NCBI GenBank assembly: GCA_027625915.1
Contig: JANTQA010000047.1
Coordinates: 19,592,001-19,656,000 of the forward strand
Length of the DNA: 64,000 bases
Origin: Anaeramoeba flamelloides
Taxonomy: Eukaryota > Metamonada > Anaeramoebidae
Direction: 5' to 3'
Shown in pieces: positions 5,335 to 41,820 of the stretch; positions within the stretch are counted from its first letter, which is position 1; each line of letters opens with the position of its first letter. The notes under the pieces are model-generated. The model saw nothing but the letters and a program-made list of their open reading frames with translations, ran no database searches and was not told the DNA's origin. The position numbers were made by a program, and so were the translations under genes.

Positions 5335-7744
5335 TTAAATGATATTTATAATTTTTTGATATTTTGCAACGATATTGTTCATACCTAATTGCTTTGCCAT
5401 CAAATATTTAAATTTCAAGTTTCTAATATTTTTCACTAATTTAACAATTTTGGGTATTTTTTTATTTTTTTGGATATCCTTTTTCGAAAGTGTTATTAGG
5501 TTGACAATTATTTCATGATTTAAAAGGCTAAATTTTTGGAAGTGTCTTAAAAAAATGAAACTTTTATCGTATAAGGTATGATGATAAATAATTGAGGCCC
5601 ATATTTTGGGTGTATCCAAATGATAGTATTTGGCCAATATCATTGCGCCTTGATAGGACATAATTTCCCTTTTCATAGTTTTAATAATTTGAGTTTTTTT
5701 TTTCAAATTGATGATTTGGATTGAAGCCATTGCTATTTGTAGATAGATTAACTCCAACAAATTATAACACTGATCCAATTTAGAATTTATTTCGCCTGTT
5801 TGAAAGGCAGCTATGGCGTCTTCTAATATTCTTGAGATGTTGAGTAATTGCTTTTGGAAATTGGAAGTATCATTTTTTTCGTTTTTATAATTTATCTTCT
5901 GTAGGGACTCAATGCAATTTTGGTAATGCAATTTCCCCACTTCCTTCATTTTGAAAAATCTTGAATACACCCAAAATTGCTTTTCTTTATCCTCTGGGTG
6001 CTTTTTTTTCATATACTTTGATAGCGCATATTCAAGATGTGTTTGCAATTCATTTTTTCTAATTTTGCCAAGCATTATTTCAAATTGTTCATGCTCCCAT
6101 AGCACATCGAATAAATAATTCAATTCGTTATAATCTGCGATCTGTCTTAACAATTCTAGCAATAAATCAAATCTGTATCTTTCCACATAGACGGGTACTC
6201 TTGTTTTAATAAAATTTAAAACCTTTCTTGATCCAGATAAACAGCAGACTAGGCCAAAGCAATAATGCGCATGGATTAATAAAAGAACTTCGGAATTTAA
6301 AGGAATTAAATTAACTTTATTTAATACAATACTAAACAACTCAAACCCTAAGATCTTTTTGTCCGTCGCCAAATTTATTAATCTAGAAAATTCAATTGTC
6401 GACCAATTCAAATTCATTTGCTTCTTGATATTTCCCGTGTTGCTATCATTGCCATCATTCTTATTCTTATTATCCCTATCCTTTTTGTTGATTGTCATTA
6501 GGTTTGTTGGCGGTAGGGGGTTGTTATTATTAATGTTGTTATTATCGTTTTTAGTCATTATTATTATAAAAATATGCTTAGCTAATATTTTTGACAAAGT
6601 CTTTTTTTCAATTTTACGATGGAACAAAAAAGATTGAATTAATTTATAATTATTAATCTCGTTGAAAAATAATAATCGTAATATCCTGGAATTGTCGAGA
6701 GTTAAAATCTTTTCAAATCCCATTCCAATTATTTCTGAAATAATGAAATTTACTAAGATAAATTTACAATAATCTTGCCCACTTTTGAGCAATTTAATTA
6801 ATTTTTCCAACAAGATCTCCCGATCAATTTTATTAATATTAAAATTTTGGTCATATTTTTTTAATTTTTTTAAAATGTCATAATCATCTGAGGAATTTTT
6901 GATCAATTCAATAAAATTTATTGTTTTGTCTTTTGCTATTAATAAACAAATCCGTGTAATAATTACATTTTTGTATTTATAATTTAATTGCTTACAAATT
7001 TCTTCTACTTGATTGATTTTTTTATTATTTAACAAGCAATCTAAAATTTTGTTTAAAATTTTTTTATTACCAAACTTTTTAAAATATTTACCCATTAATG
7101 AATAATAATAATTTGGGTTTGTTTCAATATCATTATTTCCATCATTATCTTGATTATTATTATCATTATTAATATTATTATTATTATGATTATTATTATT
7201 ATGATTATTATTATTATGATTATTATTATTATTATTATCATCATTATTATTAGGATTTTCGTTGTTGTACTCTTCATTATTAATATTGAAAAAAGAATTA
7301 TTAGATTGTATAATTTTTTTAAATTCCATTGAAGGAATGGGTATACTTTCAATTAACCATTTTGGAATTGCTAACAAACCACTTTTTTTAAAAAAAGATA
7401 ATAAAATAATTTTGGTTTTAATATCTTCAAAAAATAATTTGGAAAATTCATTAGATATTTTATTAAACCAAAAAAGGCAATAATTCAAAAGTTTAATTAT
7501 TTCAATTTCATTTAATTTATTTTTAAAAAACTGGATTTGATAAAGAAAAAAATCACCAGCAAATTTAGGGCTAGAATTATTGGCAATAAAAATAGATTGA
7601 GAGATCGTCCAAAAAATTAATTTATTTTCAAAAAGTGTTTTTTTGTTTAATTTGATGATCTTTTTTAAATTATAAAAAATTTCTTGTAAAATTATTTCAT
7701 TTATTGAAGAGAAAACATTTGATGAAGAAACTGCTGTTAAAACA

Positions 7745-7832
<88 letters not shown>

Positions 7833-10800
7833 GTGAATAAATATTTATTATTGATTTAGCATCATTAAATCTATTTTCGTTGATTAAATAATTAAGAATA
7901 TTGTTTGTATGAAATTGGTTTTGAAAAAAATTCAATCCCAAATCTCGATTTATTTTAATAATTTGAAATAATTTTGAAAAATTTTTATGAAACTTGTATT
8001 GATTTAATAATTTTAATAATTTATATTTATTAATTGAATTAGTTCTTTTTATTAAAATTTGGATAATTTGGAAAGTGAATTTACCAATCAACAAATTGTT
8101 AGTATTATTATTATTTTTATTATTTTTAAAATTTATTAAATAATTTTTTAAAAAACGTTTTGCTTTTTCGAAACAATTAACTAATGAAAATCTGAAAAAT
8201 TTAATTAAATTCAATAAATTATTTTTCGGATCTAAAATTTCAAATATTTGGATTATATTAAAAAAATTTCCTGAATTAGAAATGATTATTAAGATTTCTA
8301 ATAATTCTAAAAGATTAAATAACGGTAAATCATGATTAACAATATCATTTTCATTGCTTTTTTTGATCTCATTATTCTTGTCATTATCCTGATCATTATC
8401 CTGATCATTATCCTTCTCATTATCATGATCATTATCCTTTTCATTATCCTTCTCATTATCATTATCATTATTCTGATCCTGATCATAATCCTGATTGTTA
8501 TCATTATTAATAATAATATTTAAAAGATTTTTTTTTTTTACTTTTAAATAATCAATTAATAAATTATATTTTATACAAATGAGCCAACAAATAATACAAT
8601 CAAATTTAGAAATATTAACAAAATTGCTGGCTATTAAACAATAAAAAGGATTTTTTTTTTTTAATGATTCTAATAAAAAAATTTTACCAATATTTAAATT
8701 ATTTATATAATTATTTCCATTGTTATTAACATTCACAGATTTTTTTGTATTATTCATAAAGATTAAAGAAAAGTTATTTTGAATTAAATTATTTTTTTTA
8801 AAAAATAATTTATTAAATAATAATAAATGGGATTTATAATTTGTTTTGACAATTTTAGCATTAATTAATTTTAAATTTTTTTTGAATGAAAAATTAGAGT
8901 AATAAATATAATTAAAAAAATATTTTAAATAGTTTGTTGATATTTGTGGGAATAAATTAATAAATTCAAATTCAAATTTAATATTATATAGTTTAGAGAA
9001 TGCAAATAACAATTTATAATTCAATTTTTTTGAGACTGTTGATTTAATTACCAATTTCAAATAATTATTAAGAAATTCTTTATTTGGATTATCCGTATTA
9101 AGATTGTTACTAGTATTACGATTATTATGAAGATTAATATTATTATTGGTATTAATCGTAAAATTAGGGTTATTTGGTAAAGTAATTAATTGAAATGTTA
9201 ATTGGATTGCGTTTTTTAGTGGGTTGTTGTTGGGATTAGTTGCCTTTAAATATTGATAAATTCTTTTACAAGATTCTAAATGGATAATAAAAGAGAATGG
9301 ATTAATATTATTTAATTCAAAAAACGTTAAACAAGAAGAAACAATTTTTTTATTGAATAAATTCGTTATTCCAATAATTTCAATAATTTTTTTATGTATT
9401 GCTTTATGCTTATTAGTGAAGTCTATTTTACATTCAAAAATCCTACCTTGATTTAAATAATATGATAAATCTAATTTTTCAATTTTTTTATAATTATTTA
9501 ATATATCATTATTTTTATTATTATTTTCACTTTCATTATCATCATTTTGGGTTTTAAAATAGTCATTTGTTGTAATGATATTATTTAATATTTTATTTAA
9601 ATTAATTTTATTTTTAATATTTTTTTTAAAAAAATTATTTAAGGAAGGAATATTTCCCATTAATAGATTTAGAATTAGATTCTTATAAGGTTTGTTTTTA
9701 TGAAAAAATATTAATTTTAAAAAATCTTTTGATGAATATAATAAAAGTGTAATTATTTGAAAAAAATTCTTATAATTATCATAAAGATTAAAAATATTTA
9801 ATCTCTTTACATTTAATATTTGTTTAAGATTTTTTATAGAAGCCAAATAAAGATCACCTTTATTTTTTATATTGATAAAAGCTACAAATGATTGAAACCA
9901 TATAGATTGGAAATTTTTATCATTAAAATTTAAATTTACAGGGTTGTAATAAGAAAAAAAACTTTTTAATAAAGAGACTTTTTGTTTTTGGATACAAAAA
10001 AATATAAAAAATTGTTTAAAATTATTTGATAAGGTAATTATTTTGTTATTGTTATTGCTATTTTTATTGTTATTGTTATTGTAATTTTCATTTTCATTTT
10101 CATTTTCATTTTCATTTTCATTTTCATTTTTGTTTTTGTTTTTGTTTTTGTTTTTGTTTTTGTTTTTGTTTTCTTTCTTGTTTTGATGTTTTTCTTTTTG
10201 GTCTTCATCCTTATATTTATTATCAACGAAATTGTCTTCTTTTGATTTATTATTATTAATTTTTGGAAATAAATTATTGGTTGACACTAACCAAAATAAA
10301 TATTTTATATTATTATGATTGTTTAAAAAAAGTATAAAATCATGTTGGTTTATTTCTTTAAATAAGATTTTTTTTATATAGATTGTAGAAAGGGCAATTG
10401 ATTTTGTTAATAATAAATTAAATTGAGTGTCTTTGAAATAGTTGTTTGGTATATTTTTACACCATTTTTTGATCCCATTAAAATTACCATGTATTAAATA
10501 ATATTTAAACAATATTCGCCAATACAGTTTAGGATTTGATTGTATTTGTTTTTGAATAAATTTTGGATAATCATTGACATTCTTTATCCCAATGCTTTCA
10601 AATAAGATAAATAGATAATCAGCAAATTTGAAATTTTGATACCAAATCATTCTTTGGTAAAAATTTTCATTTTCTATTGAAGAAGGAAAAGTTAAAATGT
10701 CTTCTTTTTGGAATTTCTTTAAGATAGGATCATTTAATAAATTTTCTTTTCTCATGGTTGGTGATAGATTTTGGTTTTTAAAATTCGTTTCCCAAATTTG

Positions 10801-12157
10801 GTTAATTTTTAATTCGTTTATTAATTTGAATTGCTTTAAAAAAAATTTGTTTAAATAATTATCTTGTGGATTATTTCTTTGTAGTTGGAAATTTTCCAAA
10901 ATTTTTAAGAAATTTTTAGAATTCTTTTCCTTTTTGAAGAATTTATTTTTTTTAATAATTGGAATTAAATAATTTCTTAAACTGTTATTACTTGTAATTA
11001 ATAAAACTTGTTTTAAATCATTATAAAAATCTCTACCAGAATTGAAAACAATTTTTTTAATTATTTGTAAATCTTTGGATAATAAATTTTGATAAATAAT
11101 TCTGATGATTAATTGATTATATAAATTTAAAAAATTCAAATCATCATTTGTATTGTCATTATCGTTTATATTTGCATTATCATTATAATTGATATTTTTA
11201 TTTTCATCCTCATTTATGTTGTTATTTGTTAATTGAAAGACTTTAAATCTCGAAAACATTTCAGAAATGTTATTATTTAAAATAAAATTTGTAATTATGG
11301 GAATTAAATCTTTTTCCTTTTGTTTATGAATTAAATCCCTTTCGTCTTGAAGAATATCAAATAAAAATTTATTTTTTCTTTCATTTTTGTTCCTTAATTT
11401 TGAATGTATGGATCCTATTTCATTGTATTTTATATCCCAAACGCGAAATTGAATTAATAATTTCATTAAAATAATTTTTTCTTTTAAAAAATTTTTATTT
11501 AATGTGATTTCATAATGTTCATTATTTAGACTTTTTAAATAATATTTTTTTTTTTCCTTTTGATTATATCTATTTCTTTTCTTTTTTTTATTATCGTTAT
11601 CATGTTCATAGTTGTTTTCATTAATTTTATAAATTAAATAATTATTTAAATTTATTAAATAATTAATTGAGATTTTGATAACTTTGATAAAAAAGGGATG
11701 CGAATAATCACTCTCAGAGGATTCTGAAAGAATTTCCAATAATTTATTAAAACATGGCAAAATTAATGAGAAATTAATTTTCAAAAGTATTAATTTAAAT
11801 AATTTTAAATCTTGATCTTTTATTGATAAATCAAATAATTGTAATAAAATATTTTGATTATTCCAATTATTTAATTCGCAGATCTTAAATACAATTTCTG
11901 GATCATATATCCTTGAAAAATTTTCAAGGATCGAGTTTTTTGTTTGATTAGAAACTAACAATGAGATTTTGTTTTTTTTTAAAAAACTTATTCTGTAAGT
12001 TTTTGAAAAGATCGGTAAATAATTTTTAATTTTCAGTAATTTATTTTTATTGTTGTTGTTATTGTTGTTGTTGAAAATGTTGTTGTTGTTGTTGTTGTTT
12101 TTATTATTGTCGTTGTTTTTATTGTTGTTGTTGTTATTATTGTTGTTGTTGAAAATT

Positions 12158-12193
<36 letters not shown>

Positions 12194-13668
12194 TTATTAT
12201 TATTATTGTTGTTGTTATTGTTGTTGTTGTTGTTTGATTGATAAATAAATAATAATGATTTTTTTTGCCCATTTTTTAATTTTTTCCCAAGAATAACTAA
12301 TTTATTTGAAATAAATTTCAAATTTTTGATTTCAAAATTTTTCTTTAATTTGCCAATCTTGATTAAAAAATTCTTTTTTTTTATTTGCCGTCTCTTTCGA
12401 AACCCAGTCAGATTGATTGGTATTTTTGAATTGTTCTTTCTGTTTGGGAACCACTGGGGGTATTTATAATAATAATTTTTTTCTTTTTTATGATACCATT
12501 GGATGGGTGTTCCATTTTTTTGGAATTTTAAATAATTTTCATCGATTTTATAGTGTATTTTTTTTAATAACATTTTATTAGGAATTAATTGCATATATTT
12601 ATTTCCATTTTCGGTTTCGAGTTCCTTTTCATTTCCGTTCTCTAATTCTATACTTTTGTTGTTAGTTTTATTCAAATCATGAAAGTTTTCTGTTGCATTT
12701 TCATCTACACTAATATCTTGATCGACATTAATATTTTCTTTTTGATTAATATTTTCATTTTTTTCTTTCTCGTTTCCCATTTCGATCTTGTTCTTAAAAT
12801 TGTCAATAAAAATGCTTTGTGTTTTGTCTTTGAATGAACAAACAAATTTCTCGAAATTTAAATTAAAAACATTCAGCCGATTATCGACAATTGCAATGGT
12901 TTTGTATTTTTGATCAATGGCAAAATATTTTGGGGTTGCAAGTAAGGGAGATTTAGGGAATTCTGTAATCAATAATAGCTCTCTGGTTGATATTTTCCAT
13001 ATCTCCAATTTATTTTTTTGCTCACAATAAGAAAAAAGATAATTGTTTGTTAGGGAACAAATGGAACTCTTTTGAGAAAGGTCAATTGTTTTGGTGTGGG
13101 AAAAACTGTTTTGGTGAACTTGAATAATAACTACAATTGAGTGATTGATTAAAAAAGCAATTTTGTCTTGAAAAATCTGACCGTGTAATAAAACTAAATC
13201 GTTGATTTTGGTGTTTTTTAAAGAACCAACATTGGTTAATAAATAGTTTTTTAATTCAAACCTTTCGAGATACAGAATTGCTGTTCTTTTGTTCTTCTTT
13301 TTTGATGGTTTCACCCATGTTAAATCCGAATCGTGAGGGTACTGTGATCGGTTGTCAATCGATCTCATACGGGTGATCACAGATTGCTGGCTTGGGTTGG
13401 TTAAGATTAACACATCTAATGTTGTGGAATTTACATGGCAAAAGATATAACTTGTATTATCAAAAATTACAGACTGGGTGCTCTTCACTTGGTTAATGTT
13501 GATTTTGGGCTTTTCTAAATTTGAGACAGTTTCCGTAAGTAGGTGTAATTTTAAACATTTCTCTTCCGTAAGATAAAAAAGATAATTCTGAAACAAGATA
13601 CCATAAAGTGATGATCCTAACCTGTTCGAGTTCTTTAATTTGTGTACAGTCAAAAAAAGATTCACCAT
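5335..13668 (-). CDS. SPG11: spatacsin homologue (SPG11-like), 2777 residues
   Basis: This is one uninterrupted frame with no introns. ATG at 13668 is the first possible start, because an in-frame stop lies 14 codons upstream. The last 330 or so residues match the conserved spatacsin C-terminal domain: LLELLRQIADYNEL, then LFDVLWEHEQFEIMLGK, LSKYMKKKHPEDKEKQFW, a helical LLELIYLQIAM stretch and a YQGAMILAKYYHLDTPKIW segment. Residues 1-470 are beta-strand-rich, as expected for the N-terminal propeller-like part. In animals spatacsin works with spastizin and the AP-5 adaptor complex in late endosome and lysosome traffic; the same role here is inference. It is longer than the human protein (about 2440) because of low-complexity inserts: poly-Asn near residues 480-540, a Lys/Asn/Glu stretch near 1170-1200, an Asp/Asn/Glu stretch near 1725-1775 and about 28 Ser near 1945-1975. 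Confidence 0.85.
7143..7252. repeat. ATT/ATG trinucleotide repeat within the SPG11-like gene
   Basis: A run of ATT units broken by regular ATG units encodes, on the minus strand, an Asn/His tract near residue 2150. The same DNA gives spurious Ile-only frames in other registers. Confidence 0.8.
7748..7831. repeat. (GAT)28 microsatellite coding poly-Ser
   Basis: A pure GAT run is read as TCA serine codons on the minus strand within the spatacsin homologue. It interrupts an otherwise helical region and is likely variable in length between strains. Confidence 0.9.
10088..10172. repeat. hexamer repeats within the SPG11-like gene
   Basis: Seven or eight TTCATT units are followed by about seven TTTGTT units. 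On the minus strand they encode Lys-Asn then Glu-Asn dipeptide runs. Confidence 0.85.
12045..12238. repeat. GTT/ATT repeat coding poly-Asn
   Basis: A nearly continuous trinucleotide tract encodes Asn runs broken by Lys, Ile-Phe and Asp on the minus strand. It separates the N-terminal propeller-like part of the spatacsin homologue from its helical body. Confidence 0.9.
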
Positions 13669-14520
13669 TTGACTGTACAGGCTTGTGTATTTGATAATAA
13701 AAGAATTAAATTAAACAAGAATGTCAAAAAAGAAAGAAAAAACAGAAAAAATGTTTTTTGGGAAATTAGAAAAAATTTAATATATTTCTCTTTTCAAAGA
13801 AGTCATTCCTTCAGACACACTTTTTTTATTATGCCACTATTATGCTTTATCAGAATTTTGTTCTCACTTGAAAATAGTGAATTTTAAATCAAATAGATAG
13901 GTTCTGAGAACTGTTTCTTTTTATTGACCTAACAATCAGATATTTTCATTATTGGTAACTTTCAATACCATTCTTATTTTGGACCTTGAATTTTGGAATT
14001 GACTTCTAAGAAATGATATTTTATTTTATTCAAGTCATTTTTCCGCTTGTTACAATTTATTGTTCTTCTTTGCTTTGTTATGTTTTTGTTTGAAAAAAAA
14101 AAAAAAAATTTTAAGGGATTAGCCTTAACCAACAGAGAAGTCCAAAATTAAATTATGTTTCTATTGAAGGTAAATCGTCTTAGTTCTAATTTACTCGATG
14201 GTATTTGAAAAAATCAATTTGTGAAATAAAAGAAAAGTTTTTCTCCTTATTGAATTCAAAATTATACTTTCTTAGTAATCAAAGATAATGTAAAAAATTT
14301 TTTCAAAAAATAATTAAACATTTGCTAATTTTTCATCTTCTTAATAACTTTACTTATAATAAATCTTATTGGTAAATAAGAGATCTACAAACCAACTTAT
14401 CAAATTTTAATAAAGAAATTAATCCAATTTTTTTTGATTTTTCCAAAACTATTCAAAAAAAATTAATTAAATATAATTTGTTTTAAACGAGTTATTTAGT
14501 TTTAAAAAGGTCTTTATAGT
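13669..14520. other. AT-rich intergenic DNA, promoter side of SPG11-like gene
   Basis: No gene is visible. The first 100 bases upstream of the minus-strand ATG must hold its 5' leader. No defined promoter element could be recognised. Confidence 0.5.
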
Positions 14521-20585: not shown

Positions 20586-23500
20586 TTATTTGATTTTGTG
20601 AATACAATTTCTTGGTACATATCCTTTTTCATTTGTTTGAATGTTTTTTGCGTATATCCAATATTCGTTTACCTTTGCAATTCTTTCAAAAATATCATCC
20701 TTTTTGCAATTTATTTGATTATACTTGCTTTTTGTATTATCGTCAATAAAATTGTCCTTAATAGCCTTATATTGTTTAGCTAATTGAACATTTTCAGTTT
20801 TGATCACATAGTTATTTCTAAAAAATTAATAGTGAAGACAAAAAGTGAATAGTGGTAAAAATAAATGATGTTTGAATATTTAAATAATAAAATAGAAAAT
20901 TGTTAATGGTTAATGGATTAAAGGATTTATTCAAGTTGTTTTAATAAAGTGATGACTTTAAGTTTTATAAAATATGTTCGTGGTGCTGTTTTACTCACTC
21001 TTTAAAGCTATTTGAGTTGCTCTTTTTGAAACTTGGATTCCTGATTTTTTAAAAAATCTGTAATTTTTTGCTTTTTCTTTTTTCCAAAAAGCAAAATTTA
21101 AATATTTGAGAAATTCATTTTAAAAAAGGATTAAAAAAAAGTTTTTAAAAGGATCTTTAAAACAGCCTTAATTATTATAATTAATCTTTGATTTTTTTGC
21201 ATTTTTTCCATGGATGGATTTCTTTATATTTGAGGAAGAAGATCTACAAAGAAAAAAGATCAAGTGATTACTTTCTAATATCGAGATGCTGAAATAGAAA
21301 AGTATCAGTAACTTGAAAATAAAAAAGAAAACGCAAAGGAAAAATATCAGAATGTTGAAAGCAAATTAGATCAAAGAGAAAAAAAGAAATTATAACAATT
21401 AAAACAATGATACCCAAATGAAATATTCATGATCAATTATCAAACTAAATTAAATTAGCCAAAAGTATTGTGTATTTGATTTTGTGTGTAATTAATTAAA
21501 AATATAGCATTGAGCTTTTTATTTTATTTTTTACCAATTGCTCATTATAAACCTTTTTTAAATTTCTTTGTTTTTTTTTATTTTTTAAATTTCAATTTTT
21601 TTTTTTCTGTATTTTTTTTCAATTTTTTGTTTTTGCTTTTAAACCTAAAAAAAAAATTGGGTGTGTCTTTCACATGAATAATCGTGAAATTTATGATTCA
21701 ACACTTAAATTTCGTTAAATGAAATTTAAGTAAAATGGCATCTAGCGTGTAATTTACACTTCTTCCATCAATAATAAAAAAAAAACTAGTTGTATTTTCG
21801 GTATAATTTTCAAAATGTGAAAATAATTTGTCAAAAGAATATATTTGGTAAATTATTTAATTTTACAAGTTTAATTATTGAATTTTTTAGCAACTAATCT
21901 ACCTTCCAAGACAATTTTAAGAAAGATATTTTGTGACTTTGGAGTCTGAATATTGATGATTCCACCTTTAAATTTTGTTTCTAAAGTTAGTTTTTTTTCA
22001 ACAATTATTGAACTTTTTATTCATACAATGATCATTTTTAATTTATGGAGATCAACTTTTAGCATTATTTTACTAATTGAATTTCGAGAGACATATTTGA
22101 ACCATGGAACACTAATACAATTTACCTTCAATGGTCCCATGCTTTAATTTTTGGACTTCTCTGCTGTAGAAGCTAATTCCTTAAGGTTTTTCTTCTTGAT
22201 ATTTCAAACAATCAGAAAGAAAACGAAAAAAAAATAGCCATTTTCTTAAGTTTTCAACTTTCTTTTGAATTGTTTAAAAGAGTAGAAGTTAAATGCCTGA
22301 GTTTTTTTAAAGAATTCCAACATCAATTTATCATTTTTCGTTTTTTTGAGATACTGATATTTGAATAACCAAATGGGAATTCATTTTCATTTTCTATTTT
22401 TCTTTCCCTTTGCAAATAGAGGTTTCAAAGAAATAGATTGTAGACGATGTCTCTATTTATTTACTTGGTCCTTTTTTATTGATAAATTGGTATATTTTGG
22501 GTCAAATAACAATGGTAGGTGAAAGAATTATTTAGAAAAGAAAAAAAAATAATCATCTGAAATTTTATCCCATTTAAATTTTATATACCAGTAAATTCTC
22601 AGTTTGAACACCCCGTTCTTTTAACAGCGGGACTAAATGGTTAAATAATGTTTTAAATACCTTTTGAAATGAATTTAGTATTATTCTTTGTTTGTTTTTT
22701 GTTTTTTTGTTGGATTGGGTTCAAAAAATTCCTTAATAAAAAACTTTTTTTTATTTTCCTTTCATTTTTGGTAAAGCAGTTCCAACCCTACAGTGAAAAT
22801 ATAAGACATAGAAATTGATTTTCTATTACAAAATTTTATCATGTATGAAAAACCGTAAAAGGGTGACGAAAGTTTATCATAAAGTGTAAAATTTATAATG
22901 TAAGAAAAAAAATTATTTTATCCATTTTTTGATTCCTTTGGTTCCTTTGGTTCCTTTTGTTCCTTAGGTTCCTTTGGTTTTGGAAATTGACAAATAAATT
23001 AATAAAAAAAACTTACATTAATTCAGATCTTCAATTTCCAAAATTGTTAAAATATCAGGTTTTTACAATTTATATACAATGATCGAAAAATACTTTCAGG
23101 TTTCTGATTTATATGATTTCTGTGATTTCTTTTCTTTTGGAATTGTATTTTTTGACTTGTTTATTACAAAAAAAAAAATCTCTTAATGAAGTAAGAGATA
23201 TTGAATTTTTTATCTTAAGATATGAGAGAAATTGAATTTTTTATTTTATAAAACACAATTTTATAATCTACAATCAATTTTTATGTCTTATAAAATTTCA
23301 AGGTAGGTAGGATTGGAACGGCTGTAAAGACAAAAAAAAAAAGAAATTTACTAACTTTTGAATTTCATGAATTTCAAAACAGAAGGTAAAGATTATAGAA
23401 ATACATTTTCACAAAAGTTTAAACCTTTTTGAATATTTCTTAATGAAAAGGGATTTTTCACTTCTTAAGGAAGTAGCAACACCATAACAACCACTGAAAT

Positions 23501-26500
23501 TGAAATATGTGTTAGTTTATTAAAAATTATATTGGTGCTCTTAAGTTCTATATTCCCAAAAAATTTAAAAAAAAATGTAATTTTTTGATTTTTATTAATA
23601 TCAACAATTAAAATTTCAGAAAATTTATCTTAAAAAAAAAATTAAATTTGAAGAAATTTATTTTAATTTTTATATGGATATTATTTTTTGAGATATAAAA
23701 CTAAACCCTTTCACTTTGTATTTTCAGATTATGTTGATATAATAATTTTTAATTCTTTTATTATAGCCTAGATTGAAAAATATTTCAACAAATCCAAATA
23801 TTCTATAGATCTCAAAAAATAATTATAATAATAATTATGTTTTATCAAAATTCTATTTTAGGAAAAGAGAATTTCAGCTATAATTGATATTTCTTGTATA
23901 AAATTTTATTTAATAGGGTAAAGTTTTTAAAAAGTAATTCATTTTATTTGATAATATTCTTTTATTATTATTAAACAATTTTATGTTAATTAATTAAATT
24001 CCTTTTTTTTTTTTTACCTTACCTGAAATGTTTTTGTAACTTATTTATTATTAATAAAATAATAAACCACCTTTTGTTTTTATCTTACAAAAGTGCCAGA
24101 CTATTTTCTGGATAATTCTTTTGAATTTTATTAAATACAATTATATCCTTATTTTAGAAGTATTAAACTAAGATTTATTTAAACATTTTTTTACAATATT
24201 TACTCAACTTCAACTAATCAATTTAACAAAATATATCAGAACAATAAAAACAAAAAAAAAAAACTATTTCTATTACCTTCCCAATCTTTACAATTCCTTA
24301 TTTTGTGCATTTTAAAAAATACTTTAGATTCATAATAATTATTCATTTCCAAGCATAAGATTAATTTAGCATTTTTATTTCAATTACTAATCAGTTTGAG
24401 TAAAATGTGTAATTATTTGAAATTGTGAGATTCTATTCTATAAGAGTAAATTTAGCAAATCATGATATTGGTCTTCATACCAGTGTTAAAAATTAATTCG
24501 AATTTCAAACTTTGTAACTTTTCAAGTAATTTTTTCATATTTAGATTTCGAAAAATAATAATTTGATCAACACAAAGTTCCAAAAGAAACAATCAACTTT
24601 GAAAAATAAATTAAAAAAAACAAATTGAACCGATGATCAGATCAAAAGATATTTTTCTTGTATTTTTATACCTGGTTGATTGGATATTTACATCGATAAT
24701 ACTTTATAATTTTCGAATAATCCTTGAATCCCAACTTATTATTATATTAGATTTACTAACAATACAAATACCGTATAATAGAAATCATTTAAGTGTATTC
24801 TATATTTTTAATTCTCTTTAGTTAAAAAAAACACTTGACAGAATCATTTTTTTAAAAACCTCAGTTTAAATTCAAAATATTTCACAAAAAGGTTTAATAT
24901 AAAATGAACGATCTAAAGATTTTTTACCATTTCATTTTTTTTTTTTATGATCTAAGTACATATTGTTCCTTTTAAATTTTAGAGTAAGTTCAATTAAAAT
25001 ATGAGTATTATACCAGAAGTCGACACTTTAATTTTTTTTGAATTTACAATTGGATCTGAAAACTGTCTTGTTTATTTAGTTTGGTTTTGTTTGATTTTGA
25101 GTATTCAAAGTACTTGGTTTAAAAAGAATTTATTAGATTTTTTTTTACAACATAAAATAAAATGCCACAATAGAATGTTGAGATAAGAATAAAAGTTAAA
25201 CCATTTAACATTCTTCAAAGTAGATTAAACAAATCAACTTAACATTCTATTGTGGTAATTAATTTTACCTTTGAAAGATAAAATTAATAATTTTTTTTTC
25301 ATCAAGCACTTTAAATACGAAAAATCAACTATATACAGCCAAAGTAAAGTATGTTGTTTTCTAGTCTTCTTTAAAAATATTAGAAAGTGAAAATTTTGGA
25401 CTTTATGGTGTCTAGTCCCTTAAAAATAAAAAGTTAAAAAAAAAAAAAATGGAGTAATTTGGAAATAAACAAACCTTTACAATCTTATTTAAAAAATAAT
25501 ACTGTTAATTGCAAAATAAAAAGATCAAAATTTTCATTCAGCTTTCCAAAAAAAAAACACATTCAAAGAATTAAAATAAAACATCAAAGCTCCTAAATTC
25601 GAAAAGGGGTGAATGAACAACTTATTGTTGCTGAAAAAAATTGGGATGAGAAAAAAAAGTTGGACGATTATTTTGTCAAAAATTAAAAATTTAATTGTCA
25701 ACATTAGTAAAACTGATCAAAACCACCAGAATTTTTTGAAGATAATAAGAATCCAAATGGGGATTAAAGTCTTTTAAGAAGTATAGTATCCTACTTATTT
25801 TACTGTGATTTCAATTTCATCAAGATATTCTCAGAAGAATGTCTTAAAAATCAAATTCTTATTATAGAACTAAATCTTCACAGAAATGAAGAATTATCAC
25901 TGCTTTTTATCTTTGCCATTTTCAAATGTTATTTTAAAAATTAGTATTTCTTGTGTTAGTTCTTTGAATTTTAAATCGATTCCTTTGGGCCTTTAATCTT
26001 TAATCTTGATATTCAATGATATTTTTAAAAAAAAGAATAGATTCTTTTAAGATATACAATGAAAAATCGAAAAATCAGAAATTGGTGATTTTCACAATTG
26101 CTTTATCTTAACTAAAATCGAATTTTTCATAAGTTCTCACAAAATAATTCAGATTAAATATTAAGGATTATCTCTGAAAGTCTTAATTTGCCTGATATGA
26201 ATTACCCAAAAAATACACTTTTTTACTCATTTTTGCCACTTTTTACAATCAAAAATAAAGATATTGATTTTTAAGATATTCTATTTAAAGGACTTTGCGG
26301 AAATTGAAATGAAGAAAATCAAAGTTAGATACTATACTTCTGAAAAGCTTTTAATCCCAATTTGTATTCTTATTATCTTCAAAAAATTCTGGTGGTTTTG
26401 ATCAGTTTTACTAATGTTGACAATTAAATTTTTAATTTTTGACAAAATAATCATAACAATTTTTTTCCACAACAGTTAGGCTTGTTTAACAATTAAAAAT

Positions 26501-27426
26501 TTGAAATGTTACATGATTTATAAAATCTTTTATTTGGAAAGTCGAATGAAAATTTTGTTCCATTTATTTTGCAACAAATTGTAACTTAAAACAAACTCAG
26601 GTTTTGTGACAAAAATAAATTTATGTTTTTGATCGAAAAACACTTCCAAGACAACTTACAAAATAAAAAAAAAATAAAAAAATGAGAAGTGGGAAAATAA
26701 AAACACAAAGAAAATCTTTGTGAAACAATAAATGTGCACTTACGGAATTAACCCAATTTTCCCTGACTTGTTTTGGGCAATTAGCCAACCACTTTTGTGT
26801 GTTGCTTTCACAAGCAAAAATTCGTTTAATTTGAATCCTAGGTCAACTTCTTCAATTTTGTAAAAAGGCGCAATGGCTTGTACATAATATTCAGAAACAG
26901 GAAGGATCTTAAAACTGTTGTTTTGTTGTTGTTTATTGTCATGTTTTGGAAGTTTTTTGATCTCCTTTCGTTTGTTTTCTGTTTGTTTATTTACAGGCTG
27001 AAATTTGTTGACTTTTTGTTTGTTGGTAGTCTGGTTAATTTTGTTCTGTTTTTGGCCCCTCCTTATGTATTGTGGTTTTGGTTCCTTTTTCACACCAACT
27101 TTCTTCAGTTTTGCTTCTTGTGGGTTGATCCCAAAATAATTGTTTTTCTTTGCTTTGATTGTATCAAATTTGAGCTGGCGTTTTGGTAATTGCGGCGGCT
27201 TTCTACGACTGTTTGTTTGTATTCCCTTTTTCTCTGTTCTCTTCTTGTTTTGTCTGAAAAGCTTTGGGCTTTGTCTTTTTTGGTTTTGGTTGTTTGGTAA
27301 TTTTTTGGTGTTTGTGTTGGTAGTGCCGCTTGAAAAACTTGAATATCTTTTGTGGACTTGATGTGTTCTTTGAGGAAGTATGGGCTTGCTTTCGAATTGC
27401 TTTAATAACTCTGCAAATTGAGTCAT
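20586..27426 (-). CDS. two-exon gene encoding a basic protein with two SH3 domains
   Basis: Exon 1 is 27426-26744 and exon 2 is 20817-20586, giving 304 residues. Exon 1 ends ATT-CC at a GTAAGT donor. Exon 2 starts after TTTTTTAG with A-AAT-AAC-TAT-GTG. Joined, they restore the phase and complete an SH3 domain across the junction: GWLIAQNKSGKIGLIP-NNYV, the classic SH3 ending. A second SH3 (about 242-300) follows at once: YKAIKDNF, KKDDIFERIAK, YWIYAKN, EKGYVPRN. The first 175 residues are basic, disordered and Pro/Gln-rich. Such proteins act as adaptors binding Pro-rich partners; the partner is unknown. The 5926-base intron is filled with inverted-repeat elements, while the ribosomal genes nearby have introns of 150-430 bases. 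Lost exon pairing, giving two separate fragments, is the main alternative. Confidence 0.75.
21195..21380 (+). repeat. dispersed repeat R3, copy 3
   Basis: The plus strand matches the minus strand of 3620-3840 and 770-975, from GCATTTTTTCCATG through AAAAAAGATCAAGTG to the lysine-codon-rich tail. It lies in the giant intron of the SH3 gene. Confidence 0.45.
21703..21731. repeat. small perfect hairpin
   Basis: ACTTAAATTTC and GAAATTTAAGT form 11-base arms around a 7-base loop within the SH3 gene's intron. No function is assigned. Confidence 0.5.
22354..22591. mobile_element. MITE family F, copy 2
   Basis: TA-CTGATATTTGAATAACCAAA opens it and TTTAAATTTTATATACCAG-TA closes it. The family ends match 15206-15368. 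It lies in the SH3 gene's intron and is non-coding. Confidence 0.65.
22777..23324. mobile_element. MITE family D, long copy 1
   Basis: CAGTTCCAACCCTAC at the left mirrors GTAGGATTGGAACGGCTG-TA at the right, and the arms continue through AGACATAGAAATTGATT. The interior, including GGTGACGAAAGTTTATC and ATCTTCAATTTCCAAAA, matches the copy at 60398-60898, so the family is defined by more than its ends. It is intronic and non-coding. Confidence 0.7.
25165..25256. mobile_element. tiny inverted-repeat element
   Basis: CCACAATAGAATGTTGAGAT and TTAACATTCTATTGTGG are inverted arms about 50 bases apart. It resembles a miniature DNA element within the SH3 gene's intron. Confidence 0.55.
25502..26581. 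mobile_element. foldback element, family B, about 1.08 kb
   Basis: TA flanks both ends. The arms begin CTGTTAATTGCAAAATAAAA on the left and, inverted, GTTGCAAAATAAATGGAACA on the right, and run inward some 370 bases with recognisable matches (CAAAACCACCAGAATTTTTT, then CTTAAAAATCAA). The whole element could fold on itself. It has no transposase frame. Short relatives are at 14523-14743 and 40842-41069. It lies 160 bases from the donor of SH3-gene exon 1, inside its intron. Confidence 0.75.
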
Positions 27427-35619: not shown

Positions 35620-37097
35620 TTAATTTTTTCCAGAGATGACTGGAAGGTCTTGGGCATGCTTTCCAATATCTTTAGAGTCTTCTTTTGGTGGGAATACAGT
35701 GATAACATCTGGTTGTTCAACGGAGACACCGATTTTACCCTCTGGATCGTATGGTTGCATAATTCTTACTTTGACACCAAACATACCTTGTTTCATCATG
35801 ATATGTCTAACGGCAATGTCAACCATATCCTCTGCTGGTTTACCGGCTTTCAACATGTATCCGTCTCTGAATTTGACTCCTCTTGCTCTTTGTCCTCTAA
35901 GCTTTCCTGCAACAGTGATTTCAATACCTCTGGCTCCTCCTTCCATTGCGAATCTCATGGCACCATAGCAAGCTCTATAGAATTTCATTTGAATTGTTAG
36001 TATTGGAATTATTAGTATTTTAAATTAGGTTGGATTGATTAAGATTCACAAATCAGATGAAAAATTTTGGGTGGATTAAAAAAAAAAAAATCAAAAAGAA
36101 CCTATTAAAAAAATGTTAATTGGTTCTTTTGAAAAAAATGATTCAAAAGTATCTCTAAACTTGATTACAAACTCCGTTTTACCTATTTTTGGGACTTTTT
36201 TAAAAAAAATCTTAAGTCACACTTCTTTTACAAACGAAAAAAAAGGCATACATAAAAAAAATAAAAAAAAAAGTAAAATAAAATAAAAAGAAAAGAAAAA
36301 GTAATTATAAAGAAAACAAACCTTCGAACTGGAAGACCAGCAAGTAATTTAAATTTGATTGATTCGGCTTGAGAAGCTGCTGATAATGATCTTCTTTCAA
36401 CACGATCTGCATATAATTCAATTCCACCTTCTTTAAATCCAAATCTTTTTTCAACAAGAGATGTTAATTCTCTAATTCTTCTTCCTTTTTCTCCTGTTAG
36501 AATCAGAATTGTGTTTAAAAGATTGAAAAAGTTTTTGGATCCCAAGAGTAGTTTTTGTATTGTTTTTAAAATTAGAAAAAGTTTTTTGATTTGTTTATTT
36601 GTTTGTTAATTTTTTTTCAAACACAACAGAGAATGAAAGACAAAACAAAAAAAGAAAAAAAAATAAAAAAAGCAAAAAAACATTTAAAAAAAAAACTTTA
36701 AAAACAAGTTTCTTTTTCAATTTTCAATTTTCTTTTTTCAATTTTCTTGTTTCTTTTTTCTTTTCTTTTTTCTTTTTTCTTTTTTCTTTTTTCTTTTTTC
36801 TTTTTTCTTTTTTCTTTTTTCTTTTTTCTTTTTTCCTTTATCTTTTATCTTTATTCTTTTTTGGGTAATTAACAACAAAGGTTTCTTGTTTACAACAAGT
36901 CCAAAAAGAAAATGAAACTTACCTAAAACTTTTTGTGGTGCAGTAGTTTTAAGAACAACATCTGTTCGTGAAGCTGTTACTCTAACATCTAAGCCAACAT
37001 AACCGTCTTCACCAATTTCTCTTTCAAAAAATTCACCAAGTTCTGATTTGAAGACTCCGTCACCAACAAATTTCTTTTTCTTTGAGATTTGTGTCAT
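35620..37097 (-). CDS. RPS3: small-subunit ribosomal protein uS3 (RPS3)
   Basis: There are three exons on the minus strand: 37097-36923, 36493-36322 and 35974-35620. They join to 233 residues. Diagnostic blocks: [25 protein letters not shown] joined to EKGRRIREL (KH domain with its GEKGRR loop), [24 protein letters not shown] joined to [21 protein letters not shown] and [18 protein letters not shown]. uS3 sits at the mRNA entry channel of the 40S subunit. The C-terminus is about ten residues shorter than in animals, in a part known to vary. Introns are 429 and 347 bases. The first holds a heptamer tandem repeat. Confidence 0.97.
36745..36837. repeat. CTTTTTT heptamer tandem repeat in uS3 intron 1
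   Basis: About a dozen units of TTTTTTC are arranged head to tail. It explains the lysine-rich and phenylalanine-rich frames on either strand here, which are not genes. Confidence 0.85.
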
Positions 37098-37745
37098 TAT
37101 TTGGTCTGATATAAAATAAGAATAATTGTTAAACTAAAAAAAATGATAAATGTTGAGATTCAAAAAGTTCAGAATAGCACCAAAATATATTCACATTATT
37201 TTTATTCATAAAATTTGTCCTTTTTGACATTTAACCAAATAAAAGATATAAATTAAGTAGATCAAAATTCAAATTCTTTTCAATTGAAAAGTTTTGACAA
37301 TTAAAACATGAAAAAACTTTAGAAAATCAGTTATCAACTTTAATATTTATAGTTTTATAAAAACAGTTCTTGTCTTTTGAAAGTAAATAAATATTTCTCA
37401 TTTGGATAACTAAAAGAGATTTGAAAGAATCAATGTGAAATATTTTAATACAGGTGTAGATATATTTTACCAATTTTTAGTGTGCCACTGCTTATTTAAA
37501 AATAAAACAATTAATTCTAATTATTACTTGAACCAAATATATAAAGTACCTTAATAAAATGAGGGGGCGGGGTATATCCACATGCAATATATTTTAGATA
37601 TCAATTAAAAAATTTATACTGAAAAATTCAAACACAGAATAAACATATTATTCAATTTCCCTTTTAATAATTCTATCAACTCAACTTTTCAAACAGTTCA
37701 TTAGTAGGAATATTTCAAAGATCAACTAATTTTACAAATTTACCA
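37098..37745. other. AT-rich DNA upstream of uS3
   Basis: This is the promoter side of the uS3 gene. No gene is visible and no specific motif was recognised. Confidence 0.45.
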
Positions 37746-38060
37746 ACAGTCCTGTACCATTTATGGGCACAGGAAAAATTAATATATAAGGCACAAAATT
37801 TTGTTCACTTCAGGGCAGAAATTTTTGATTTAAAGCACTTTCCCAATTTCAAGATATAATTTCACTGAATAATTACAGAGTTAGTTTGAGTTTTTCCTTC
37901 AATATGTATATATATATAGAATATTACATTATGAGTAATCTTGGAAATTTACACAGAAAAATTGTACCTTATTTTGACCACTTTGATTTTGTACCTTTAT
38001 AGGATTTTTTTGTGTGTTATTTCTTGATTTTTCCTGTGCCTTAAAAAGATACAAGACTAT
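37746..38060. mobile_element. imperfect inverted-repeat element
   Basis: CAGTCCTGTACC..GGCACAGGAAAAATTAATA at the left is mirrored by TTGATTTTTCCTGTGCC..GATACAAGACTATA at the right. The arms are about 60 bases with several mismatches. It is an older MITE-like relic with no coding. Confidence 0.6.
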
Positions 38061-39017
38061 AAGATTTAAAGCATTAAAATGCTTTATCCAAATATAAGGG
38101 AAAAAATTTGTAAAATGTAAAGTTTGATAAAAATTTTCAGACACCTATTTGAATTTATCAGTATCAAAAAAAATGAAAAAATTTGATCAAGAAAAAAAAA
38201 AAAAATAATCATTTCGATATCTAATCTAAACCATTAGATATAATTATTTACTTTTTTTTTTTTACTATGTTTTATTTTTAATTCTTAATTGAAATGTTTT
38301 TATTAGTAAATTTTTTATTAACCAATATAACTGCTTTTTGTAAAAGAATTTTGGAAAATAATTTTTAATCATCTTTTGATCAAATTAATCTAATTCAAGA
38401 TTCGGTTCAAGAAAAAAGGATATTTTTTAAATACCCTCTTTCAGAAATAAAGAATTGTTATATATGTTTATTTGATGATAAATTTATTTATTCACTATCA
38501 ATTTCTTTTAAAACCAAAATTATTAGGAATTTTGCTTGCAATTTTTTCATTTTTTTTTCTTTTTCTTTGAGTAAAACTTTTTGGAAATTATTTTGAAAAT
38601 TTCCATAATTTATTCATTTTTCATTTTAATCCTCTTTGTATTATTCTTTATTTCGGTTTATTTTGATTATAATATTTGAAAAAAGAATTAAGAAAATATA
38701 ATTTGCAAAAAAGGACTGTGGTTAAAATAATAACAAATAGAGATGGGTTAAAAATCAACCAGTGTTCCCTTTTTAACTCTCAACGATATTAAACTCTGTT
38801 TCATTCAAAGTGGCCCAAAGTTTTTTTCAAATATCAATTATTTTATATAATTGGCCTTTGAAGAACAAATAAGAAATAAGTAGAATAATACACATCAAAG
38901 AATTGTTGATATATGTCTGAAAGAAAACTAATTAATCAATATATTTTCTCAAAAATTGAAAAACTCAAATTCATAGGTCCCTATTCGGAAAAACACGATG
39001 TTCGTTTTGAACTTCTA
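38061..39017. other. AT-rich intergenic DNA
   Basis: No gene, RNA or clear repeat could be supported. Confidence 0.45.
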
Positions 39018-39183
39018 CTGGTATTTGAAAAATAAATATGAAACATTTTTCACTTCATTTTCCATACTTTTCTTTTAGAAACCAAGCCCTTAAACGGAGT
39101 GTGTTGGTATTTATGGCCACTATTTGAAAAAGCAAATGAAAACGAAGTGAAAATTTTTCACATTTATTAAAAAAATATCAAGA
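39018..39183. mobile_element. MITE family F, copy 3
   Basis: TA-CTGGTATTTGAAAAATAAA and the TTTTTCACTTC block are mirrored at the right end (GAAGTGAAAATTTTTCACAT, then TTATTAAAAAAATATCAAG). The right terminus is degraded compared with 15206-15368. Confidence 0.6.
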
Positions 39184-39479
39184 TCAAAGATCGAATAGAA
39201 TTGCAATAGAAATCAATAGATTTCTCAACAATCATTTACATGGTTTCAATAACCTTAGAATAACACATTTTTACCAAGTAACTGATGATCTTGAAATAAA
39301 AAAAATTTTTGCAACTGAAATTAGGTTTTAGATAAAAAAATCGAAAAAAATTGAAAAACAAAAATGTGAAAAAATGATTTTCATATTTTTCTAAAATCAA
39401 AATTTATTTCTAATTTGAAATAAAATTTTATTATTGTGATTCTTTGGAATGTTTTAGCAATATTAAAAATTTTGAATTT

Positions 39480-39610
39480 GAACTTACGTTGATTGTAATT
39501 TTTTTCTTCATTTTTTCATTTATAAAGTATTTTATTAAAAATGAAGATCTTTAGTGTTTGGTTCTGAAAAGAAAATTTTTGTTTAAAATACACACCTTCC
39601 TTATCTTTTT
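39480..39610 (+). repeat. dispersed repeat R2, partial copy
   Basis: GAAGATCTTTAGTGTTTGGT and AAAGAAAATTTTTGTTTAAA, then ACACACCTTCCTTATC, follow the order seen at 48210-48290. Confidence 0.35.
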
Positions 39611-40841
39611 TTTTTTTTAATATATTAAATTTTATCAACCAAAAGAAGTTCGATTTAACAATATCACTTTTGGTAGTAGGTCACTCATTGGGTATGGAGC
39701 AACTACACTATAAGTTGCTAGACCATAATTGTACACTTTCTATTTATATCTCTATCTTTTGATTATAAAGCTATTAAGAACAAGTTACCCAGATCATTCT
39801 AAACTTCATTTCAAAATCATTGGCACATTAAAAATCAAATTTAAAAAATAAATATTTTTAATAAATTGAACTTATCTATAAGAATAAAAAAAAATAATTT
39901 TAAAATCCAGTTCTAAAAATTAGAAATATATGTATTTCAAACAAAAATACAATAAAAAAAAAGTAAATAAAAATAAAAAAAACAATTGGGTAATTTATTA
40001 TGAAATTTTGTTTATTTTATGAATCTAGAGAAATGATTTTTTAAAAAATATTGATTTTAATATTAACAATCAGAACTTATCTAGTAATCCTATATATAAA
40101 CTTTATTTTTGGTAATTTGCCATAGAACTTAAGTCATCTATTAATAAAAAAATTACCAAGGAATAATGGAAAATGAACTATTTCTTATGTTTACTATCCA
40201 AACTAATCAAAAACCTAAAAAATCTCAAAGTGTTAGTATTACCTCAACAGATAATGTTGAAAAACATTGCCAGAGTTGAACAAAAAGTGTATTTTCAAAA
40301 GACTCCAAAAATTTGAAGGTAGCCCAAAAAAAAAAGTTTGAGGTAAAAAAAGTGTTTGGTATATTTTTTCAGGAACTAATTCAACACAAAGGAAAGAATG
40401 CTGTTGTCAAAACAATACATGAAGAAAAGTTTAATCCTAGTTCCAAAAATTAAATCGTGTTTCTTTTTTAGAGAAAACCTAGACACTTATCGATCAATGA
40501 AACTAAAATTAAGTCTGTTATTGGTTTCTAAAAGTATTATTACTTCAAAAGAAATTCTTTAAAATAAAAGGATCAAATTGGAAAATTTATCTCTCAAAAT
40601 GAGTTAACTTTAGAAACAATTTTTGGTAAAATCTAAAAAACCACAAAATATCAAAAAAAATGAGAAAATGATGAAAAAATTTCAACAAATCACATTCATT
40701 TTTTCAAATTTTTTTTACACCCACAAGGAAAATACCTTGAAAATTAATTTATACTAAGGTATTCTATTAGGTAGTGAACTAGATTTTACATTGGAACTAG
40801 AAAAAAAAAAGCATCGGATTATATTTTGAAACAAGAGTTTA
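39611..40841. other. AT-rich intergenic DNA with a possible decayed frame
   Basis: The stretch 40166-40455 (plus) reads as two short frames separated by a stop, beginning MENELFLMFTIQTNQK. It looks faintly coding but matches nothing recognised. Nothing else is supported. Confidence 0.3.
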
Positions 40842-41069
40842 CTGTCAATTGTAAAATAAAAAGATCAAAATTTTTATTCAGCTTTCCCAAAATAATCTTG
40901 TTTTCTTAGAATTAAAACTAAACCAAAGATCCCCAATTCCAAAAGGGAAATAAATAATTTAAGATTTCTGTTTAAAGATTTATAAATTTGAAATTGTAAC
41001 TTTGTTTTAACAAATCTTTTTTTGGAATGTTAAATGAAAATTTGGTTCCATTTATTTTGCAACAAATAG
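40842..41069. mobile_element. MITE family B, short copy 2
   Basis: TA-CTGTCAATTGTAAAATAAAA at the left and CATTTATTTTGCAACAAATAG-TA at the right are inverted ends, with GCTTTCC blocks just inside. The TA flanks are intact on both sides. It is 228 bases and non-coding. Confidence 0.75.
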
Positions 41070-41820
41070 TATTGGCTTTATAAACTTATTTTTTTGGGTA
41101 GTTGTAGTGAAAATAAAAGAGATTTTGAAAGTATGGTTTTGTTTTCAAAAACTTTTAATTCTCGAGCTTCTACATTTAAACGAATTTATTGTGTATTTAC
41201 ACATCTGTAACGAACAAAAATGCACTTCCAACTTCATAATGAGTTATTTCATTACATAAAAGTTCCAAAAAAGCATTATATAAAAGTGTTTAAAAATTAA
41301 GTCGAGATTTCTAAAAGAAAATTGGTGATTCGTAAAGAAAATGAGTTTTTTGAAGTGATTTTTGAAAATTTTCTCAATACCTTTTGAAACAACCTCAAAT
41401 ATCGTCATTACGTTTAACTCTTGAACCACATTTTCTCCAAAAACTCGTTATTTGAGAATTTTGGAGTTATAAAAAAAGTTGTAAATTTGATTGTTTAAAT
41501 TCTCAAACGAAGAGTGCCTTTATATGACACACCTTTAAACGTATAATTGTTTCTTTAATAAATCCAAAATATACCAAAATGTTATGTGAACCAGGAGGAG
41601 AAGTAATTGACACTGAAAAGCTGTGTAATTTCATAATGCTGGTTGTAAAAAGGAGTTATTTTTTAAACCACATGCCTATCTGCGAACATTTTTCTTGGTT
41701 GACTTTTTCTTTTTTTTTTTCTTGTAAATTTAAATTTCTTTTTCCAACCAAAAAAAAAAATAAACAAACACAAAACCTCTTCACATCAAAAAAAACTGAA
41801 AAATTTGATACGAATTCAAT

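Follow-up and report, generated by a model that had tools for sequence, protein, structure and literature searches.

Spliceosomal introns enlarged by transposons are described from plants, animals and other organisms, and the activity of repetitive elements is named among the causes of intron size in PMC3058033. In such introns, as at the locus analysed here, a position is shared between copies and a difference in length is accompanied by repeats in the long copy. For Anaeramoeba itself, our literature search found no work on transposable elements. In the RNA mapping of PMC11550330, introns were allowed up to a length of 10,000, a setting that would not exclude an intron of 5.9 kb.

We analysed a window of 64,000 nucleotides from A. 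flamelloides (C48:19592001-19656000 of the 254-Mb, 76-contig genome), for which a preliminary description had proposed one SH3 gene with a long, repeat-filled intron. An acceptor scan with controls and, above all, paralogues with the same donor bear this proposal out. It is very probable that a single two-exon gene encodes a 304-residue protein with two SH3 domains, and that its phase-2 spliceosomal intron, shared with a gene family, was grown by repeats to 5.9 kb. From its domains, the product is probably an SH3 adaptor for proline-rich partners.

Gene structure and the choice of acceptor

The exon and intron coordinates, the GT/AG borders, the restored Pro codon and the 304-residue product all agree, to the base, with those first proposed. 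In window positions the parts are as follows.

26744..27426, minus strand: exon 1, with a putative ATG start; further exons upstream are possible
20818..26743, minus strand: intron of 5,926 bp, GTAAGT...TTTTTTAG
20586..20817, minus strand: exon 2, with the NNYV end of the first SH3, the second SH3 and a TAA stop

Exon 1 encodes a basic, Gln/Asn-rich stretch of ~180 residues followed by most of the first SH3 through GKIGLIP. It closes with CC, with GTAAGT next, and the join CC|A rebuilds the Pro codon CCA, the intron being in phase 2 and separating the Pro from the final strand of the penultimate SH3. The two exons together measure 683 + 232 = 915 bases, or 304 codons plus the stop, and their open frames span 227 and 76 codons. 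With GT...AG borders, a good donor and a T-rich acceptor, the window intron has the sequence features of a spliceosomal intron; its A+T content is 77.7%, that of the exons 67%. No ATG-to-stop frame of more than 63 codons was found on either strand of the intron.

As the preliminary description had predicted, a domain search of the joined 304-residue protein returned two stretches of Pfam SH3_1 (PF00018; E 5e-13, 48.9 bits against a cut-off of 22.9), and residues 183-228 correspond to profile positions 1-47 of 48. Searched separately, exon 1 scores 21.2 bits, just below the cut-off, and exon 2 scores 26.5, above it. Pfam found no family other than SH3 in the joined protein and no further SH3 upstream of these two; the paralogues on C70 and at C24a (listed below) carry extra upstream SH3s.

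To choose among acceptors we used an SH3 profile made from the 30 top PF00018 loci of the genome, which supplied 27 distinct sequences, and exon 1 was joined to each minus-strand AG at least 40 bases downstream (n=985). By total SH3 score the acceptor at 20817 ranked first of the 985 (40.6, against a mean of 25.8 with sd 1.37; next 35.2), and by best single domain it ranked second (32.7 versus 34.4 for the acceptor at 11480). Among 3,923 control acceptors the maximum was 35.5 on the plus strand (n=2,404) and 36.3 upstream on the minus strand (n=1,519). Restoration of NNYV, at first considered as proof of the join, was dropped as sufficient in itself after these control scans: completing the first SH3 is not decisive alone, because chance acceptors in AT-rich DNA supply similar ends (NNYI, RNYL or SNFT, and also KNYF). 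What sets 20817 apart is that it alone, among all acceptors tried, both completes the first SH3 and adds a second.

Left unspliced, exon 1 meets an in-frame TAA directly after the Pro of GLIP, and its SH3 would be without the last strand. A stop placed directly after the donor would suit partial splicing, in which some messages end in the intron and yield a protein short of both that last strand and the second SH3; AT-rich long introns often contain usable polyadenylation sites. Such messages would be compatible with the two-exon gene, and we regard them as unlikely; the shortened domain would be missing its final strand.

Paralogues that share the donor

When the genome was searched with the window protein, 54 candidates came up, with 19 matches at E up to 10 that included both exons of the window gene. 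The nearest relative of the window gene lies on C70, although identity in the first SH3 is just 42%. Its first half (C70:7209719-7210048) reaches query residue 229, where a TAA closes it, and its second half (C70:7207037-7207246) takes up at residue 229, the strand and order of the halves being as in the window gene; this paralogue thus has the whole split. The donor CC|GTAAGT and the acceptor AAATATAG would give GKIGIFP|ANYV across an intron of 2,475 bp (7207248-7209722), and no other of the 178 acceptors scanned at this locus scores as high (58.9; next 50.0).

A genome-wide pattern consisting of a Gly codon, two NTN codons and CC|GTAAGT occurs at 9 places in 254 Mb, and the reversed pattern, used as a control, at 5. 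Six of the 9 places close an SH3-like stretch in frame, a count that is a lower bound because the pattern demands CCG and GTAAGT. The other three (C9:5417080, C48:1667459 and C57:3578490) were excluded, their upstream translation being un-SH3-like as judged by eye. The six same-donor SH3 genes are listed with the grade of their acceptors.

Window gene: acceptor firm
C70: acceptor firm; PF00018 match at the donor site
C24:17212959 (C24a): acceptor probable, intron probably 149 bp, predicted short exon 2 giving PKTFVKGI; PF00018 match at the donor site
C24:8149408 (C24b): acceptor probable, intron probably 153 bp, predicted short exon 2 giving PKNFVKGI; PF00018 match at the donor site
C9:5465040: acceptor probable, intron probably 105 bp, predicted short exon 2 giving PKNFVAKI; weak SH3 match (E 0.04)
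C1:9043644: expected acceptor reads TAC, not TAG; weak SH3 match (E 0.004)

By the pattern and the upstream translation, the codon and phase of the donor are common to all six. The weak matches at C1 and C9 were made by the C70 protein alone, and both loci are absent from the 150 scored PF00018 matches. At C24a, C24b and C9 the predicted second exon adds 7 residues to the Pro before its stop, a reading that appeared on loosening the motif (PK[TN]FVKGI and PKNFVAKI, each followed by the stop). It ranks first of 52 acceptors at C9 and second of 201 at C24a; C24a and C24b are close copies and do not count as independent. Another acceptor at C24a, at 858 (PNNHI...), was dropped when it proved not to be conserved in C24b, whose identity to C24a is 79% across the 1,047 bases that follow the donor. 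No SH3-like second half was found in the flanking stretches searched near the four paralogues other than C70. At C1:9043644, where TTTTTTAC stands before AAAGGATATATTTGTC, the odd sequence may reflect an acceptor without AG, a gene that is broken, a fault in the assembly or a misreading.

Downstream of both C24 SH3 genes we noted a conserved gene that by eye resembles a short-chain dehydrogenase. Because this gene follows each of the two, we infer that the C24 block of SH3 gene and dehydrogenase-like gene was duplicated.

Unsplit relatives exist as well. At C24:20607483 one open frame runs through GEIGIFP-LNCV into a second SH3, and at C37:7299299 a match of 29% identity also spans the junction without a change of frame. 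In a tree of 38 SH3 rows and 61 columns, the unsplit C24 domain groups with the six split ones, 7 rows in all, with an SH-aLRT of 92 that falls below the 95 mark. With the unsplit C24 row in the same group, a clade of the six split SH3s on their own is not rejected (p-AU 0.451), in a tree of so few columns that was also flagged for long branches that meet (the window with C70, and the C24, C1 and C9 rows with the unsplit one).

Because the same donor position recurs across the family, the intron most likely predates the duplication of the SH3 genes and may have had a single origin. A bolder reading is that an SH3-array family keeps one ancestral intron at GIFP|NNYV, extended by repeats over a range from ~0.1 to 5.9 kb, which in the long-intron members separates an optional second SH3, and that intron length could tune the output of two-SH3 protein; we hold this to be distinctly unlikely.

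It is very improbable that insertions broke the gene, with splicing lost and both halves left as relics. Such decay would fit C1:9043644, a member of the same family that seems to be without AG at the expected acceptor, and the window copy, which has no further upstream SH3s, unlike C70 and C24a. Relics should gather stops, however, and here the frames are open over 227 + 76 codons, the exons are 67% A+T versus 78% for the intron, and the signals at both splice sites look sound. It is exceedingly improbable that the exons are two genes, the first truncated, with one SH3 and its end at the TAA behind GLIP, the second a small one-SH3 gene of its own at 20586-20817. The in-frame TAA right after the Pro, which leaves exon 1 with an SH3 minus its last strand when unjoined, is as that reading would have it. 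Exon 2, however, lacks an in-frame ATG, and its frame is closed by a stop four codons upstream of NNYV, with just the three codons FFR in between, which excludes an independent ATG start; the C70 paralogue is broken at the same residue with its halves in the same order; and in the unsplit relative a single frame runs from GIFP-LNCV through a second SH3. In the two-exon gene that we favour, the spliceosome would still remove the window intron, because both frames stay open.

Repeats within the intron

Four repeat blocks account for 4,195 of the 5,926 intron bases (71%), with a remainder of 1,731. The genome was searched with the foldback and three intron stretches, and 40 candidates were scored for each, the window included. 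Elsewhere in the genome A, B, C and E thus have no fewer than 39 copies each, whole or partial, at the identities listed below.

21187..21782: repeat B (~596 bp), copies 77-81% identical, from 40 scored of 7,888 first-look candidates
22772..23327: repeat E (~556 bp), copies 72-84% identical, from 40 scored of 1,447 candidates
23465..25423: repeat A (~1,959 bp), copies 80-87% identical, from 40 scored of 2,882 candidates
25500..25589: left arm of repeat D, a foldback interrupted by repeat C
25622..26478: repeat C (a foldback of ~857 bp), copies 79-90% identical, from 40 scored of 3,239 candidates
26487..26583: right arm of repeat D

Repeats A and E combine inverted terminal repeats, a target duplication and many dispersed copies, as MITE-like elements do, with their ends read on the window copy alone and not from an alignment across copies. 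The inverted ends of A are GGAAGTAGCAACACCATAA and GGGACTAGACACCATAA, with TTAA flanking both sides, and those of E are CAGTTCCAACCCTAC and CAGCCGTTCCAATCCTAC, with TAAAG on both sides. B and C have many copies, C and D are foldbacks, and no clear target duplication was seen for B, C or D.

The intron had been said to hold a 1.08-kb foldback element. The foldback is there and has two parts, the ~857-bp foldback C and, on either side of it, the arms of the smaller foldback D. An uninterrupted D of 234 bp lies at C9:3029721-3029954, and because its arms are just 52 bp apart, the comparison suggests that C inserted into D in the window intron. Outside the window, a copy of C lies within ~250 bp of D at all four sites at which D turned up (C9, C17, C76 and C24), a count that is partly a selection effect, the search having chosen places by C. 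C and D may thus belong to one composite repeat rather than form a nest. Among the copies of C that were scored, the closest is ~65 kb off on the same contig.

The C70 intron has a repeat of its own, of ~600 bp and with at least 39 other copies, and blastn (cut-off E 1e-5, low-complexity sequence filtered) found no match between the C70 intron and the window intron. The proposed sequence of events is that several non-coding repeats inserted into the window intron and swelled it to 5.9 kb, and that the intron likewise grew by insertion in the C70 copy and stayed near 0.1-0.15 kb in others. Growth by repeats, as put forward in the preliminary description, is well supported by the four blocks in the window and by the probable introns of 105-153 bp in three paralogues. 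That such growth hides the gene from automatic annotation, as that description also held, is a conjecture.

Comparison with long introns, SH3 adaptors and mobile elements

The size of the intron can be set against others of the window. The short introns reported for nearby ribosomal genes are indeed short (186, 154, 429 and 347 bp), but these genes are the wrong yardstick, and the SH3 intron is not exceptional, because the same window holds a probable intron of 6,683 bp (42704-49386, GTAAAT...TTTTTAG), which splits an ankyrin-RhoGEF-PH gene (by Pfam). On C33 and C1, relatives of the ankyrin-RhoGEF gene are divided within the corresponding part of the protein, their matching pieces being ~7.0 and 4.5 kb apart; long introns recur, and the SH3 gene is one example. 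On the opposite strand of the 6,683-bp intron we noted a reverse-transcriptase fragment (45208-45579, RVT_1, E 3e-12), of which 45551-45976 is by eye likely more.

Other genes of the window can be recorded here. A 2,791-codon open frame at 5335-13710 ends in a spatacsin C-terminal domain (PF14649, E 9.9e-55). The C-terminal domain of the RPS3 gene at 35620-37133 has 23 matches in the genome, which fits the great expansion of ribosomal protein genes stated for A. flamelloides in PMC11550330. The RPS3 and ankyrin-RhoGEF genes adjoin in matching relative orientation both in the window (35620-52619) and at C33:15464335-15475278, which suggests a duplicated block; the genome search with the SH3 protein listed no match on C33.

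Tandem SH3 adaptors share with the predicted protein the SH3 signature, including GLIP-NNYV, and the tandem arrangement of SH3s. They differ in that the joined protein has only SH3 families, and the solved structures that match it cover the first SH3. Twenty-two solved sequences match at E 3e-5 to 1e-3, among them NCK2, CSK, GRB2, CRK and Src (best, the NCK2 SH3 2fry_A, E 3.3e-5); these matches name the SH3 fold and not an orthologue.

The intron repeats resemble MITE-like and foldback elements in being short, in having no long reading frame and in their many copies, A and E with inverted ends and TTAA or TAAAG, C and D as foldbacks. They differ in that A-E are not assigned to families and no transposase is linked to them; TTAA duplications are reminiscent of piggyBac or Kolobok types.

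With respect to transposon-enlarged introns nothing essential differs, except that here the size series consists of paralogues within one protist genome. That repeat-rich large genomes carry long repeat-filled introns is expected biology. A within-genome series in which one intron position occurs at very different lengths lends itself to tests of gene finders on protist genomes rich in A+T and to the dating of repeat insertions. The split SH3 gene looks real, and it is a known kind of feature.
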